A stretch of DNA of 62,566 nucleotides from Lysobacteraceae bacterium (GTDB lineage Bacteria; Pseudomonadota; Gammaproteobacteria; Xanthomonadales; Ahniellaceae). The stretch spans positions 1-62,566 of the forward strand of contig JAJTHZ010000010.1 of the NCBI GenBank assembly GCA_021299185.1, in the 5' to 3' direction. The notes beneath the pieces are model-generated. The model saw only the letters and a program-made list of their open reading frames with translations. It was not told where the DNA came from and did no database searches. Shown here piece after piece: positions 32,785 to 39,268 of the stretch (positions are counted from its first letter, which is position 1; each line of letters opens with the position of its first letter). The translations under genes and the position numbers were made by a program.

Positions 32785-34746
32785 ATGGGCGTGCTCGACG
32801 ACCTGCTGCGCGCACGCGAGCGCTTCGACGGCTGGCGCGAGATCCAGCACGCCGCGCAACGGCGGCGCGACGATCCGCGCATCGAGGCCGAACAGGCCAA
32901 CGCGCGCACCCGCTTCCTGCGCCCCGACGACCCGGCCTTCGCCGAGCGCGTGTTCGAGGCCAGCGACCTGATGCCGGTGCGCTACCTCGCGCTGGGCCAG
33001 TGGGCCGCGCGACCGGTGGGGCGCATCCACCTGCGCTCCACCGGCGAGGGCGATGCCTTCGCCACCGGCTTCCTGGTGGCACCCGGCCTGCTGCTGACCA
33101 ACTGGCACGTGCTGAAGTCGCGCGACCACGCCGCCGCCGCGCAGGTGGTCTTCGACGCCGAGGACGACGTCGACGGCCGGCCGCGCCCGGCGCAGGAATT
33201 CGCGCTGGACCCCGATGCCGCCTTCGTCGCCGACCCGCGGCTGGACTTCTGCTTCGTCGCCGTGCGCGATCGCAGCAGCGGCGGCGTGGCGCTGTCGCGC
33301 TTCGGCTACCTGCGCCTTTACGAGGTCACCGGCAAGGTGATGCGCGGCGAGTACGCCACCATCATCCAGCACCCGCACGGCCGGCAGAAGCACATTGCGC
33401 TTCGCGAGAACCGCATCGAGGTCTACGTCTACGACGCCGAGGCCGGCAAGGACGCGGCGGACAACGACTATCTCTACTACCGCACCGACACCGCGCAGGG
33501 GTCATCCGGCGCGCCGGTGCTCAACGACCAGTGGTACGTGATCGCCCTGCACCGCCGCGGCGTGCCGCAAACGCGCCGGCAGCTGCGCGAAGGCTACAAG
33601 CGGAAGCCCGGCCGCAAGCCGCGCCCATCCGACTACGAGGACGTCGTCCTGCGGCGCGACGGCACGCCCGCGCGCGAGGGCGACCCGGATTCGATCATCG
33701 CCTACGTGGCCAACGAAGGCGTGCGCGTGAGCCGCATCCTGCGCCGGCTCGACACGCTGGGCCGACTGCGCGACGCCGACGCCCAGCACGCCCGCGCCAT
33801 TGCCACCCGCGTGCGCAGCGTGGCCAAGGACCTGTCGCTGGGCCCCTTCGAGCGCCCCACCGCCACCCGCGCTGCGGGCCCGCGCCGCCTGCCGCGCGAC
33901 GCGAATGGCGAAGCGCTGGAACTCGTGCGTCGCGACCTCGACAAGTTCCCCGCCATCGGCGAACTCGGCTACGACCCGGACTTCCTCGGCATCCCCGCCC
34001 CACTGCCCGTGCCGCGCCCTGAACTGCGGCGCGAACTGGCGATGCGGCGCGATGACCCGACCCGGTACCTGCTCGAGTTCCGCCACTTCACCACCTGCAT
34101 GCACGCGCGCCGCCGCCTGCCGGTGTTCGCCGCCGCCAACCTCGGCACGGTCGGCAAACCCGACACGCTGCCGAAGAACCGCCCGCAATGGAGCATCGAC
34201 CCGCGCATCGCCGAAGACCACCAGCCCGACGATTCGATCTTCTCGTCGATGCTCCAGCGCGGCCACCTCGCCGCGCGCGACATCGTGCTCTGGGGCAAGA
34301 CCGCCAGCGAGCGCAGCGAAGCCGACCGCCACAGCTTCACCCTGACCAACGCCTGCCCGCAGCTGGCGAGGTTCAACAGCAGCGGCGGCGAATGGTGGAA
34401 GGTCGAACGCGCGATCGAGGAATCGCTCGCCGCCGCCGGCAAGGCCAGCCTGTTCGCCGGCCCCGTGTTCCGCGCCGACGACCAGGACTACGACGACCTG
34501 CGCAGCGGCGATTCCGATGCCAACGAAGGCACCGGCATCCGGATTCCCACCCGCTTCTGGATGATCATCGCCTGGGTCGACAACGGCGAACTGCGGCGGC
34601 GCGCCTTCGTGCTCGACCAGCGCGCGGAGTTGCGCGCGGTGGTGGAAGATGGTGGTCTCGAGATGGACTTCGATGTGCCGACGGGGGTGACGGAGAGCAC
34701 GGTGGGCAAGGTGGGGCGGATGGTGGATTTGGGGTTTGGGGTGTGA
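32785..34746 (+). CDS. Trypsin-like serine protease fused to DNA/RNA non-specific endonuclease
   Basis: 653 residues, no signal peptide. An N-terminal helical segment (1-60) precedes a trypsin-like domain with a full triad: His108 in L-L-T-N-W-H-V, Asp154 in R-L-D-F-C-F and Ser241 in Q-G-S-S-G-A-P. A linker of about 170 residues follows, then a NUC-type beta-beta-alpha-metal nuclease (about 420-645): L-P-V-F-A-A-A-N, Q-R-G-H-L-A-A-R-D with the general-base His494, and N-A-C-P-Q-L-A-R-F-N ahead of W-W-K-V-E-R-A. The first position of the D-R-G-H signature is Gln here. I infer a cytoplasmic conflict or cell-suicide effector in which proteolysis and nucleic-acid cleavage are coupled. Whether the protease releases the nuclease is unknown. 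SD sequence AAGGAGG ends six bases before the ATG. Confidence 0.88.
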   Translation: MGVLDDLLRARERFDGWREIQHAAQRRRDDPRIEAEQANARTRFLRPDDPAFAERVFEASDLMPVRYLALGQWAARPVGRIHLRSTGEGDAFATGFLVAPGLLLTNWHVLKSRDHAAAAQVVFDAEDDVDGRPRPAQEFALDPDAAFVADPRLDFCFVAVRDRSSGGVALSRFGYLRLYEVTGKVMRGEYATIIQHPHGRQKHIALRENRIEVYVYDAEAGKDAADNDYLYYRTDTAQGSSGAPVLNDQWYVIALHRRGVPQTRRQLREGYKRKPGRKPRPSDYEDVVLRRDGTPAREGDPDSIIAYVANEGVRVSRILRRLDTLGRLRDADAQHARAIATRVRSVAKDLSLGPFERPTATRAAGPRRLPRDANGEALELVRRDLDKFPAIGELGYDPDFLGIPAPLPVPRPELRRELAMRRDDPTRYLLEFRHFTTCMHARRRLPVFAAANLGTVGKPDTLPKNRPQWSIDPRIAEDHQPDDSIFSSMLQRGHLAARDIVLWGKTASERSEADRHSFTLTNACPQLARFNSSGGEWWKVERAIEESLAAAGKASLFAGPVFRADDQDYDDLRSGDSDANEGTGIRIPTRFWMIIAWVDNGELRRRAFVLDQRAELRAVVEDGGLEMDFDVPTGVTESTVGKVGRMVDLGFGV

Positions 34747-34910: not shown

Positions 34911-35771
34911 TCACCACACGAGGCAGACGCCGCTACTGAACGAGAACCGCACCTCGCCATCGCGACGGGTGGTCAGCACATACCGCGCACCGCCATCGCG
35001 GAACCACGCGATGCCTTTCACCTTCTTCGAGTAGTAGCCCGTCGTCTCCTGCGTGTTGTATTGCTTGTAGTCGTCAGAGGTGACCACGATGTTCGGGTTG
35101 CAGCGGTGCTCATCAAACATCTCGGGGCATATGCCGTTTTCTCTGCCATGGTGCGGAGCAACCAAGACGTTCACCCCAGCAACGGCATTCCGAAACGGAG
35201 AACACGTCCTCAGCATGTTCTCAAAGCCCTTGCGCTCCATGTCGCCGGGGAACATGAAGGTGATGCCACGGATGTTGAGCAGGGCGACAAGGCTCAGGTT
35301 GTTCTCGTCGTCAAAGAATGGGTAGGGATTCCAGAACCAGCTTAGGTCGAGCCCCGGGATGATTGGCGGTACCTGCTCCCACTGCATTCCGCGGCGAACG
35401 GCGAGCACAGCCGCCAACTCTTCAATGCCCGGCCCCATGTCATCTTCGGACTTCAGGTGGGCGATCGCTTCGGGAGAAACGGTTGGGTTTCCCAGGATGC
35501 AGCCGATGCCGATACCCCGCGCGCGCAGGTCCGGGAAGCCGGACATGTGGTCTTCGTCGTAGTTGGTGGCTATCAGCAGATCAATCCACTTGACGCCCAG
35601 CCCCTGCAGGTGTTGACCCGGGTACCACGGTCTTCCATTCAGGCTCACCGCATGGCCGCAGTCGATGAGCACTCGCTTGACTCCCGCAGGAGTGGGGATG
35701 GTCAGCAGCGCGCACTGGCCGTGGTCGACATCGAAAATCTGGAGCACGCCATCCTTGAGCGCAACCGTCAT
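34911..35771 (-). CDS. ComEC-like metallo-beta-lactamase-fold hydrolase
   Basis: 286 residues, soluble, no signal peptide. The fold markers are present: D-V-D-H-G-Q-C near residue 14, D-C-G-H (37-40), a metal motif N70-Y-D72-E-D74-H75, F-P-G-D (Asp177) and P-H-H-G (His207/208). The canonical HxHxDH is changed to N-x-D-x-D-H, as in some ComEC-type stand-alone hydrolases, so one metal site may differ. ComEC relatives cut DNA strands or phosphodiesters. The ATG overlaps the membrane-protein stop by four bases (ATGA at 35768-35771), so the two proteins are probably made in step. GC is clearly lower than in flanking genes. The substrate is unknown. Confidence 0.82.
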   Translation of the reverse strand: MTVALKDGVLQIFDVDHGQCALLTIPTPAGVKRVLIDCGHAVSLNGRPWYPGQHLQGLGVKWIDLLIATNYDEDHMSGFPDLRARGIGIGCILGNPTVSPEAIAHLKSEDDMGPGIEELAAVLAVRRGMQWEQVPPIIPGLDLSWFWNPYPFFDDENNLSLVALLNIRGITFMFPGDMERKGFENMLRTCSPFRNAVAGVNVLVAPHHGRENGICPEMFDEHRCNPNIVVTSDDYKQYNTQETTGYYSKKVKGIAWFRDGGARYVLTTRRDGEVRFSFSSGVCLVW

Positions 35772-36450
35772 GCCTTCGGTTCCTCGTTGTCGCTGGCGAA
35801 AGCCCACGCTGTGAACACTTCTATCGCGAAGTGCCGATAGAACTTCAAGTAACGGAGCGTCATACCGAGGCTCACGAGGAGCGAGACCCGCGCCCATAGT
35901 AGATGTTCGGCCGGCCCATCCGACTGCAAGTATGACCAGTAGAGGATAGCTGCATTCACAAGGCCTACCAGCGCAACGTTGCGACAGAAGCCATACAGGT
36001 TCATGAAACTGTCGAGCCTTGCAGCAACCGCCGGAGTACCGCGACCGTAAACATGCGCCGGCCAGAAAAGTGTTTCGCCAGGCTGGTCGACTCCGACTTT
36101 CCTGCCTTTCGCTAACACAGCCCTTTGAGTCTCGCCCGGTAGCGATGCAAAGTAGCTCGGCATGAGCCTCCGCACCCAAAACCATGCTTTGGGCTGACCA
36201 AAGAGTATGTTGCGGGGATAGCCGAGCAGTCTGCCCACCAGCAGTTTCTCGTAGAGCCAAGACGACGCTGAGGCCACCAGTTGGCCCACCGTGTAGGCTA
36301 TCAACACGACGACGATGCCTTGCACTACGGTCCAACTCTCGCGCATAAGGAGCTTGGTGCCTGCCGCTTGGTCGACCGCGAACAGCAGCATGAAGCCGCA
36401 CTTAGGTATGCCCAAAAGTCGTACGACGTGAACGGAATCCTTTGGTCCAT
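35768..36450 (-). pseudogene. Multi-pass membrane protein, partner of the MBL hydrolase; apparent one-base frameshift near its N-terminus
   Basis: The ATG at 36450 has the best ribosome site in the region (AGAGGAGCGACTC) and reads M-D-Q-R-I-P-F-T-S-Y-D-F-W-A-Y-L, but then runs into a wrong frame. The rest (G-F-M-L-L-F-A-V-D to the stop at 35768) is one base out of register. Adding one C within GCGGC at 36395-36399 would give continuous Y-L-S-A-G-F-M-L-L-F. The joined protein is about 227 residues with some four membrane segments (for example V-V-Q-G-I-V-V-V-L-I-A-Y, L-V-G-L-V-N-A-A-I-L-Y-W) and ends in R-Y-L-K-F-Y-R-H-F-A. A sequencing error, a real inactivation, or a shorter product from an internal ATG are all possible. 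Its role is unknown; coupling to the hydrolase suggests a joint function at the membrane. Confidence 0.7.
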
Positions 36451-36545
36451 GAGTCGCTCCTCTTTGCCTGCGTGTTTTGTCGATACCTTGTGTACACCTG
36501 AAACGCAAGAGCGCCCCCTGTTGTCAAAACCAAAGCCGGGACACC

Positions 36546-36611
36546 CATGATTCCGCAATCTGCTGACGCCCCCGATCGGCGTTTTCGTGCAGGCACCGCG
36601 CCGGGTCGGGC
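36546..36611 (+). repeat. Direct repeat, copy A
   Basis: About 65 bp starting CATGATTCCG, containing CCCCCGATCGGCGTTTTCGT and ending CCGCGCCGGGTCGGGC. Copy B at 36725-36787 repeats it with a few substitutions and a short deletion. A shorter related piece (GGGACATCCATCATTCG) lies between them. The copies sit in the 508-bp gap before the BrnT/BrnA operon. No coding potential is seen. They could be remnants of a duplicated element or element ends. Confidence 0.7.
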
Positions 36612-36724
36612 CGATACTCCTAAATAGGCGAAACCGGGGTCCGAACCGGAACTGGGACATCCATCATTCGATGATTGGCTGAAACTGCGAGACCCGGATA
36701 CCCAAACCACGGGAGCCGGACGCG

Positions 36725-36787
36725 CATGATTCCGTCCGCTGACACCCCCGATCAGCGTTTTCGTACATGTACCGCGCCGGGTCGGGC
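36725..36787 (+). repeat. Direct repeat, copy B
   Basis: Second copy of the repeat at 36546-36611, starting CATGATTCCG, with CCCCCGATCAGCGTTTTCGT in the middle and CCGCGCCGGGTCGGGC at the end. The start-to-start distance is 179 bp. Both copies face the same way, towards the toxin-antitoxin genes. Confidence 0.7.
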
Positions 36788-36919
36788 GCACACTTGGCCC
36801 ATGACCTCGCGCCGCCGCCAGATCGTCGATTCCTCGGTCTCCGGCTTCTACCGCGAGGCTGGGCATCGATGGTTTGGCGGAAGCTGGCGGCAAGACGGCG
36901 TCGGTGGGTCGGCGGTCGC

Positions 36920-36938
36920 GTATTGACATATGCAATAC
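36920..36938. promoter_or_regulatory. Candidate BrnA operator and promoter of the brnTA operon
   Basis: A 19-bp near-perfect inverted repeat, GTATTG-N7-CAATAC, with CATATG at its centre, lies 20 bp before the BrnT start. It includes TTGACA, a consensus -35 box. Ribbon-helix-helix antitoxins such as BrnA bind short AT-rich palindromes over their own promoter, so this is the expected site of autorepression. An SD sequence GGAGAG (36945-36950) follows. Confidence 0.65.
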
Positions 36939-36958
36939 ACTAACGGAGAGTGCTTGGC

Positions 36959-37237
36959 ATGGGTGCCGGCTTCGAACGGAACGGCGTCCTGTTCGTGTGG
37001 GACGTGGCAAAGGCATCGTGCAACCGGCGAAAGCACGGGGTCGCGTTCGAGCAGGCAGCGGAGGCGTTCTTCGATCCGTCCCTCCGCGTCGTCCAAGCCG
37101 ATCGAAACCAGCAGCCACGCGACGCGCTGATCGGTTACGGCACTCAGGGACGCCTGCTGTTCGTCGTCCACTTGATCATCGAGGGCGAAACGATCCGCAT
37201 CGTTTCCGCCTTGAAGGCCACCGCAGCTGAGCGATAG
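36959..37237 (+). CDS. brnT: BrnT-family ribonuclease toxin
   Basis: 92 residues from the ATG at 36959 (GGAGAG eight bases upstream). The BrnT pattern is plain: V-L-F-V-W-D-V-A-K-A, N-R-R-K-H-G-V-A-F-E-Q-A, F-F-D-P, then R-L-L-F-V-V-H and I-R-I-V-S-A-L-K-A-T near the end. BrnT has a RelE-like fold and inhibits translation by cutting RNA; it is neutralised by BrnA. The usual S-A-R-K-A-T motif has Leu in place of Arg, and that Arg contributes to activity in characterised BrnT, so potency may be reduced. It is first in a two-gene operon with the antitoxin, four bases apart. Confidence 0.88.
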   Translation: MGAGFERNGVLFVWDVAKASCNRRKHGVAFEQAAEAFFDPSLRVVQADRNQQPRDALIGYGTQGRLLFVVHLIIEGETIRIVSALKATAAER

Positions 37238-37241
37238 ACCC

Positions 37242-37520
37242 ATGATTCCTGACAAGCTGAAGCGCCGGCTGGCAAAGGACCGGAAGATGGTGTCGGTGAC
37301 GCTGCGCATGCCGCAGGACGTGGTCGATTCCCTGAAGACCCTGGCCCCGCTGAAGGGCCTGGGTGGCTACCAGGCGCTGCTGAAGGCTTATGTCAGCGAA
37401 GGCCTGCGCCGCGACGAGGCCGCCCATCTGTTCGGCCCCGCCGCACGCCTCGCCGAAGCGCTGCGCAAGCGCGGGGTGCCCGCCGAACTGATCGAGCAGG
37501 CCTCGCGCGACGTGGCCTGA
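37242..37520 (+). CDS. brnA: BrnA-family antitoxin
   Basis: 92 residues. A basic N-terminus (K-L-K-R-R-L-A-K-D-R-K) precedes the ribbon-helix-helix core V-S-V-T-L-R-M-P-Q-D-V-V-D-S-L-K and G-L-G-G-Y-Q-A-L-L-K-A-Y-V-S-E-G-L-R, matching BrnA antitoxins, which bind BrnT and repress the operon as a complex. The C-terminal 30 residues (A-R-L-A-E-A-L-R-K-R-G-V-P-A-E-L) extend beyond the core as a helix, presumably for toxin or partner contact. Start and spacing relative to the toxin are typical. Confidence 0.85.
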   Translation: MIPDKLKRRLAKDRKMVSVTLRMPQDVVDSLKTLAPLKGLGGYQALLKAYVSEGLRRDEAAHLFGPAARLAEALRKRGVPAELIEQASRDVA

Positions 37521-38179: not shown

Positions 38180-39268
38180 ATGGAGCCCAGGACGCTCATC
38201 GAAGACATGTCACCGAACGGGAACCTGCAGGCGTTCGTCGAGCAGGATGACCGGGTGGCGCACTTCTACCTTTGGGGTGGACCGGAGAGCCCTTTCGGTA
38301 CGCGCGTGTGCTGGGTCCGCAACCTGAAGCCCGGCTACGACGATCCGGCGCAGATCGGCGAGGCCATGCAGGCCGGCACGCCACCCATGCTGCACAAGGG
38401 CGCCTGTCGGCACCCGTCCGGCGCCGTGCCGCTGGTGGGCGAGCGCCTGCGAATCGTCTGGTTCGAGGAAGGCGATGCGGCCGCACTGCTGGAAGACGGC
38501 GAACTGCTGGCCGTCATCCCCGGCTGGAGCGGCGACGGTGGCATGCGCGGGTATGCGAGGGACTGCACGGAGCCGACATCCCTCTGCTGGCCGCTCGCAC
38601 CGGCGCTCGAGACCCTGGCAAGCCGCGTCAGGCGTGCACAGGCGTTCTGGGACTCGTGGAGCAGCGAGACGAATCCGTGGACCGGGATGCAGGATGCGCT
38701 GATCGCCGCCTACGGCGCGCTGGGCGCGTACTCGAACTACTACGCCATCGATGGCGGCAAGTGGCCTCCGAAGGCCATGCTCCGCATCCCGGTCGGCGAC
38801 TCGGTCGTCCTCGTGACGCTGGGCATTTCGCTTCGACCCCAACCCAAGGTCGAGGGCGCGTTCGAAGACCCATCGCCGCACCGCCGCATCGAACTCGGGA
38901 TGTGCCTGGGGCCACCGTTTGCGACCGACGAGCACGTCATGCGGATGGCGCGCTACATCAGCGCCCAGTCCGACCTGCCCTGGACCCAATTCACCTGGTT
39001 GGGCAACGGCCACACGATCGCGTGCGATGTGCTGCCCGGTGGCGAATCGGGTGGCTTCACGTCGGTCGTGCTGCTCTCGTCGCCAGCGGGCGTGCCGAAC
39101 ATCACGCTGCCGCGCTTCCGGGATGATGACGTGTCCGTGCTTTGGCTCGTTCCGATCACCGAAGCCGAGCGGCTGCTTGCGGTCGAGCAAGGCAGCGCGG
39201 CCCTCGCAGCACGCCTGTGGTCGCGCGGCTTCAACTGGGCCCATCGCCCGCGACCGTCCGTGGCTTGA
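38180..39268 (+). CDS. SUFU-domain (suppressor-of-fused-like) protein
   Basis: 362 residues, soluble. The first 110 residues form one domain (F-Y-L-W-G-G-P-E-S-P-F-G, R-L-R-I-V-W-F-E-E-G). The remainder looks like a SUFU domain: A-L-G-A-Y-S-N-Y-Y-A-I-D, L-V-T-L-G-I-S-L-R-P, R-R-I-E-L-G-M-C, Q-F-T-W-L-G-N-G-H-T and V-L-W-L-V-P-I-T-E-A-E-R. In bacteria such proteins are frequent immunity partners of polymorphic and contact-dependent toxins. No toxin gene adjoins it, so it may be an orphan immunity gene that protects against neighbours' toxins. That role is inference from family habit. Confidence 0.72.
   Translation: MEPRTLIEDMSPNGNLQAFVEQDDRVAHFYLWGGPESPFGTRVCWVRNLKPGYDDPAQIGEAMQAGTPPMLHKGACRHPSGAVPLVGERLRIVWFEEGDAAALLEDGELLAVIPGWSGDGGMRGYARDCTEPTSLCWPLAPALETLASRVRRAQAFWDSWSSETNPWTGMQDALIAAYGALGAYSNYYAIDGGKWPPKAMLRIPVGDSVVLVTLGISLRPQPKVEGAFEDPSPHRRIELGMCLGPPFATDEHVMRMARYISAQSDLPWTQFTWLGNGHTIACDVLPGGESGGFTSVVLLSSPAGVPNITLPRFRDDDVSVLWLVPITEAERLLAVEQGSAALAARLWSRGFNWAHRPRPSVA

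Follow-up and report, generated by a model that had tools for sequence, protein, structure and literature searches.

A candidate PDC-M48-type gene pair of an altered-site MBL-fold protein and a Csx27-like membrane protein in a Lysobacteraceae genome

A close known counterpart of the locus reported here is PDC-M48, a PADLOC defence candidate that joins a membrane protein (PDC-M48A) to an MBL-fold protein (PDC-M48B) and belongs to a set that reportedly originates in a preprint about defence genes lying inside other defence systems. NCBIfam gives the name 'anti-phage 6A-MBL system' (NF058523/NF058524) to E2-E1-JAB proteins and operons. Iyer et al. 2006 (PMC1779556) record the association of E2-E1-JAB with an MBL in their row 6a. 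In the open-access literature we found no paper naming PDC-M48 and none on 6A-MBL, each a weak negative given the open-access scope. Also relevant are Csx27, an accessory of CRISPR type VI-B whose fellow membrane accessory Csx28 forms a depolarising pore according to PMC12669027, and the beta-lactamase-like nuclease domain of ComEC/Rec2. For ComEC, PMC12455585 reports that alanine at H598, D602, H603 or D700 nearly abolishes nuclease activity, H598A being virtually inactive and D600A about 5-fold down.

We analysed a window, the whole 62,566-nucleotide stretch of contig JAJTHZ010000010.1 (assembly GCA_021299185.1) from a Lysobacteraceae bacterium, in which ORF reading places an MBL hydrolase gene and a membrane protein gene side by side on the minus strand (Table 1). 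The first-pass annotation had described them as a gene pair with an ATGA overlap, strong ribosome sites and low GC, lying between repeats. The overlap is present, and both ATGs have a purine-rich site upstream, with AGAGGAG 6 nt from the ATG at 36450 and GAGGAA 8 nt from that of the MBL gene (both by eye). GC content is 0.588 over the pair and about 0.725 over the whole window; in 1500-bp windows the mean is 0.726 (sd 0.034), and only 0.5% of them are as low. The repeats do not frame the pair, and we rejected them as its borders: both copies of a 60-nt repeat (36559-36618 and 36735-36794) lie on one side, a genome search found no further copy, and the left flank is single-copy in the genome, as is the pair itself. 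Rfam and tRNA scans of the window gave no matches, and neither did a distant blastn search in plasmids. A stretch at 36790-36935 (+) has a 52-base match of 77% identity on another contig (C249) and could be a mobile-element remnant.

Table 1. Positions of the two genes and their sequence features in the window
Feature	Coordinates	Strand	Evidence
MBL-fold hydrolase gene, 286 aa, PDC-M48B family	34911..35771	-	Translation; PADLOC PDLC04674 3.4e-61; model; alignment
Membrane gene body (four-helix protein, Csx27-like family), in the second reading frame	35768..36397	-	Profile relatives; model; dN/dS
First 17 codons of membrane gene, frame differs from body	36398..36450	-	L045 and L050 intact
ATGA overlap of membrane gene and MBL gene	35768..35771	-	Sequence reading
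Shine-Dalgarno-like AGAGGAG before membrane gene	36457..36463	-	Read by eye
Shine-Dalgarno-like GAGGAA before MBL gene, within membrane gene	35780..35785	-	Read by eye

The MBL protein matches PDC-M48B (PDLC04674) at 3.4e-61, with 204.9 bits over 10-275; its family is already listed as defence candidate PDC-M48, and the earlier description of an undescribed system falls with that listing. The protein scores below the cut-offs of the Pfam MBL models, of NF058524, the 6A enzyme MBL (E 0.045, 12.9 bits, cut-off 220), and of TIGR00361, full-length ComEC/Rec2 (20.4 bits, cut-off 190). Its AlphaFold2 model (pLDDT 92.1, pTM 0.92) has the ComEC nuclease domain 9ic4 as its closest solved fold (E 1.4e-15, TM 0.68/0.73), in agreement with the ComEC likeness first read from the sequence, and the phosphorylcholine esterase Pce as its second structural neighbour. 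The proposed N-x-D-x-D-H metal site is likewise present, as N70-x-D72-x-D74-H75 (N-Y-D-E-D-H), with D177 and H207-H208, and the GD and HHG motifs are retained. The protein thus shares with ComEC its fold and most metal ligands; it differs in having no channel or OB part, an Asn in place of the first His of H-x-D-x-D-H, and an Arg in place of Ser at the HHG motif.

We scanned 84,980 species genomes, which gave 163 MBL relatives, the best 80 being kept. Relatives found elsewhere include five from viral contigs and 14 plasmid records. Setting the threshold at E<1e-25 defined 91 loci (their genome-scan part being the best 80 of 163), with weaker loci such as L040, L041 and L043 falling outside; several of the 91 are near-identical, so that the tree holds 85 different rows of 92, the window included. 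Asn occupies position 70 in 91 of the 92 MBL rows, the exception being a His in L118. H17, D37, D72, H75, D177, H207 and H208 are found in 92/92 rows and R210 is Arg in 92/92, counts to be read knowing that relatives had to match one of two peptide patterns, so that conservation of HHGR and NNLS is search-biased, H207 and H208 lying within a pattern and N70, D72, H75, D177 and D37 outside them. D74 is present in 90/92 rows; it is Glu in L053 and L054, whose motif now reads N-Y-D-E-E-H and in both of which the membrane partner is absent too. From alignment and spacing, Asn70 appears to sit at the position of ComEC H598, and ComEC S728 would fall at R210 (numbering inferred from the alignment). 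Strong constraint thus holds all ligands but one, and a simple two-Mn DNase becomes less likely. Because the first metal ligand is fixed as Asn, the MBL is less likely to be a bulk DNase than a sensor or regulator, or an enzyme whose substrate is a small nucleotide or the end of a nucleic acid. Plain cutting of DNA, an activity considered in the first-pass annotation, accordingly goes unsupported, as the first-motif His that ComEC needs for nuclease activity is replaced here.

The pair recurs, as a search proposed at the outset could show: a window-type partner lies within 250 bp of the MBL gene in 24 of the 91 loci (genome scan: best 80 of 163). In the remainder of the same 91 the position is taken by a mem35 4TM protein (17 loci), a KDY 4TM protein (18), a short 4TM protein (4), a patatin-like protein (4) or none of these five types (24). 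Judged by these conserved copies of the same pair, its occurrence by chance is excluded. No association with competence was noticed. The patatin assignment is backed by Pfam for L087 (1.2e-21) and L102 (1.0e-15), and is weak, below the Pfam cut-off, for L076. By-eye reading of the 24 loci without a standard partner found another small multi-TM protein adjacent in six (L002, L060, L069, L101, L103, L105), a 4TM or patatin-like gene one gene off in nine (L046, L056, L059, L061, L096, L107, L112, L119, L126), mostly with a second, His-type MBL between the partner gene and the MBL, a divergent mem35 gene about 4.5 kb away in two (L047, L048) and a contig end in two (L057, L074); in the other five (L037, L051, L053, L054, L088) no membrane or lipase partner was seen. 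The order 4TM gene, His-type MBL, Asn-type MBL is found in L046, L056, L107, L112 and L119, with E2-E1-JAB seen only in L056. Within the class, the membrane family occurs in 2 of 369 genomes, and PDLC04674 is matched at E<1e-50 in 2 of 369, with 28 passing 0.001; the pair is rare in the class.

On the MBL tree, partner labels change 26 times over 85 labelled rows, compared with a mean of 48 and a minimum of 41 after shuffling; the partner is therefore inherited but exchanged. The figure of 26 is slightly high, because L112 was called window-type though it scarcely differs from the mem35 locus L107, and because class X lumps unlike proteins, and the labels take in partners up to 1300 bp away, with L047 and L048 assigned to mem35 by hand. 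Against this background the window conforms to PDC-M48 in its PDC-M48B protein and in the adjacency of its two genes (here with a frame-broken membrane gene), and differs from it in its partner, a longer Csx27-like 4TM protein beyond the reach of the PDC-M48A models. Those models were matched by 4 of 34 other partners scanned (best 8.5e-65). We take these four to be the partners of L067, L070, L073 and L081, which stand in the same MBL tree under the short 4TM label, because of a weaker A11 profile match and the size of that family.

The first-pass annotation saw the partner as a multi-pass protein of no known family. An intact orthologue in L050, 73% identical, bears out the first half, its AlphaFold2 model having four long helices (mean pLDDT 92.4). 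The second half holds for the window protein itself (P0002) in Pfam, NCBIfam and PADLOC (the last at E<=1) and gives way elsewhere, since phrog_12528 matches P0002 at 1.4e-10 and relatives match Csx27. P0003 matched no PADLOC family at E<=1 and no NCBIfam model, and the L050 orthologue no PADLOC family at 0.1. In many loci an iterative profile found relatives of the membrane protein next to the MBL. PADLOC Csx27 is matched at E<=0.1 by 13 of the 19 window-type members (best 1.2e-7), compared with 2 of 34 other partners used as a control (best 0.0043). Among the same 19 relatives, two match PDLC04670 (best 0.024) and one matches PDLC04671 (0.02). Aligned by hhalign with a Csx27 that is above the NCBIfam cut-off (from G702), the window-type family gave 1.6e-5 and a probability of 79% over 63 N-terminal columns. 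The same method related it to the short 4TM family (3.9e-5, 70%), the N-terminal 63 columns alone being alike, and to the mem35 family (3e-10, 97%, 140 columns, with a common YGFxRN motif); no relation to the KDY 4TM family was found (0.037). The protein may thus be related to Csx27, as suggested through its relatives and mainly over those 63 columns: an N-terminal F-T-x-Y-D-F...G motif and four helices are shared, whereas the window-type protein pairs with an MBL and scores below the NCBIfam cut-off. A fold search of the membrane model against the PDB found no match at E<=0.001 and none of the viral models matched; the best hit of a further fold search (Z 6.0 over 108 residues) lay within the range of unrelated helical models, and a sequence search of solved structures with the membrane profile found none. 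Relatives also occur outside such pairs: a Csx27-like protein at L044:6920-7786 (1.6e-9 to P0002) has no MBL and lies beside an integrase on a phage-like plasmid of E. coli, and Klebsiella phages also carry a distant relative.

The membrane gene of this genome does not form a single open frame, a break that the first-pass annotation missed. The gene opens at 36450 behind a good ribosome site, and its first 17 codons read MDQRIPFTSYDFWAYLS; the conserved protein then resumes in another frame, with the break near 36390-36402, and the span from 36450 to 35768 is 683 bases, no multiple of three. The nearest relatives, L045 (a Vitreoscilla MAG) and L050 (a Sulfuritalea MAG), encode the same protein in one intact frame; the window gene is therefore broken or its sequence in error. 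Compared with L045, the MBL gene has dN 0.145 and dS 1.38 and the membrane body dN 0.122 and dS 1.14, so that dN/dS is near 0.1 in both genes, indicating purifying selection, and the frame break must be young or artificial. The window copy is probably inactive or silent, or carries a sequence error. That this copy, taken alone, is an import now decaying and functionless, or else a working gene misassembled, we consider not far short of an even chance: the broken frame, the single copy and the A+T-rich foreign stretch all fit, and what counts against it is that both frames are otherwise intact and conserved. A second interrupted window-type membrane gene adjoins the MBL at L124:4303-5004, as two in-frame pieces with one stop between.

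Homologues of E2-E1-JAB occur in 34 of the 91 loci (genome scan: best 80 of 163), five of them with a window-type partner, the Asn-type MBL and its membrane or patatin gene lying in or beside such operons. The enzyme MBL of 6A-MBL itself falls into a different subfamily, whose first ligand is His. The window differs from these operons, as no match to an E2-E1-JAB protein (P0004) was found in its genome (98.9% complete, 270 contigs), nor in the genomes of L045, L050, L055, L058 and L046; the same search matched 2 of 8 genomes, those of L052 and L051, the genome of L051 being also that of the 6A locus L047. PF14457 (Prok-E2_A) had no match in this genome, and the controls gave none either. Membership of a CRISPR or 6A operon in the window was rejected, none being seen (the component tested was E2-E1-JAB), and the best reading of the pair here is as a stand-alone module.

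Defence had also been argued from the neighbours of the pair, a protease-nuclease and a toxin-antitoxin. When the ORFs at 30.0-42.5 kb were compared with the related loci by BLASTP (1e-8), none had a relative there apart from the pair and its antisense shadows; the pair thus recurs without its window neighbours, these genes say little, and we rejected them as support. They comprise a trypsin-like protease fused to a DNA/RNA non-specific endonuclease at 32785-34746 (+) (PF13365 3e-21, PF01223 6e-27), whose PADLOC match is weak, a BrnT toxin (PF04365 1.5e-20) at 36950-37520 (+) with a candidate BrnA/CopG-like antitoxin, scoring under the Pfam cut-offs, after it, and a SUFU-domain protein (PF05076, 1.3e-17) at 38180-39268 (+). 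An enrichment near defence genes is suggested by a crude comparison, 100 neighbour proteins matching 157 PADLOC families at 1e-10 versus 50 for 100 controls; its limits are that dozens of models may be matched by a single protein and that the controls come from other genomes. The neighbours were 100 of 366 genes, sampled after nine near-identical loci had been removed, and the controls 100 of 144, both from crude, script-based gene calls; three of the neighbour proteins are E1-E2 proteins, parts of related systems. Among individual loci, L036 adjoins a type I restriction system and L068 a specificity domain, and in L088 the Asn-type MBL lies between apparent HsdS and HsdR genes of type I restriction (by eye). 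A defence role for the pair is plausible, as suggested by its PADLOC and NCBIfam naming and by its association with 6A operons.

We give about an even chance to the explanation that the pair is a horizontally acquired, stand-alone PDC-M48-type module whose altered-site MBL governs an effector that attacks the membrane. The MBL, with its ComEC-like fold and its first metal ligand fixed as Asn, would be the constant part and the 4TM Csx27-like protein a replaceable output. On meeting its cue, which may be a phage nucleic acid or nucleotide or, where the locus is of the 6A kind, an event of ubiquitin-like conjugation, the MBL would act on the membrane protein, which would then damage or depolarise the inner membrane and stop the infected cell; defence, the cue, the direction of control and the membrane damage are all what we infer. 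The partner is assigned the effector role, and the MBL that of controller, because unlike membrane proteins and a lipase fill one slot beside a constant MBL; what these unlike proteins have in common is the membrane, which suits an effector. Exchange of this kind weighs against a membrane-anchored nuclease, in which the MBL would cut phage or plasmid DNA at the membrane with the 4TM protein as anchor or channel, as in ComEC: an anchor would need no replacement by patatin lipases and unrelated 4TM families. The closeness to 9ic4 and the retained HxDxDH-like, GD and HHG motifs speak for such a nuclease, the near-invariant Asn at the place of the essential ComEC His and the invariant Arg where S728 would fall speak against it, and we find it rather improbable.

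Slightly better placed, though still unlikely, is a hydrolase that produces or removes a messenger, a nucleotide or another phosphodiester, by which the membrane protein or patatin is gated. CBASS effector classes include 4TM and patatin proteins, and the partners seen here resemble those effector classes of cyclic-nucleotide systems. One locus also has a TIR-domain gene directly after the MBL (L059:5814-6818, PF13676 3.5e-27), and the second structural neighbour of the MBL is an esterase, Pce; the Asn, on the other hand, may mean a dead enzyme. The signal idea of the first-pass annotation, with the MBL handling a signal that the membrane partner reads, appears close to our preferred reading of an MBL controlling a membrane effector. 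Very unlikely, in our estimate, is a toxin-antitoxin-like pair with the membrane protein as a toxin restrained by the MBL. It would account for a compact unit of two overlapping genes found on plasmids and within low-GC islands, and for MBL sequence that persists where the membrane gene has lost its frame, as in the window, or is interrupted by an in-frame stop, as in L124; yet the L124 MBL is itself matched over residues 7-220 alone, and a constant MBL with unrelated partners and integration into E2-E1-JAB operons would be unusual for such pairs.

As far as our searches show, what is new is that the partner is Csx27-like, that partners are exchanged within a single MBL lineage, that the Asn is fixed and that there is a link to 6A operons. 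We tentatively suggest that one Asn-fixed MBL lineage controls effectors that attack the membrane and can replace one another (4TM proteins, Csx27-like ones among them, and patatin lipases), alone or as the output of 6A operons. Csx27 would then belong to this effector superfamily as well, and one exchangeable membrane-killing part would be common to CRISPR, ubiquitin-like and stand-alone immunity. This genome holds a foreign, probably broken copy, which makes it the wrong one to clone. If the suggestion is true, PDC-M48, the 6A ubiquitin-like operons and Csx27 would join one picture of a constant altered-site MBL with swappable membrane effectors; what the MBL senses would become directly testable, the same MBL type having several outputs; and membrane damage, the mode of Csx28, may also be how Csx27 acts.
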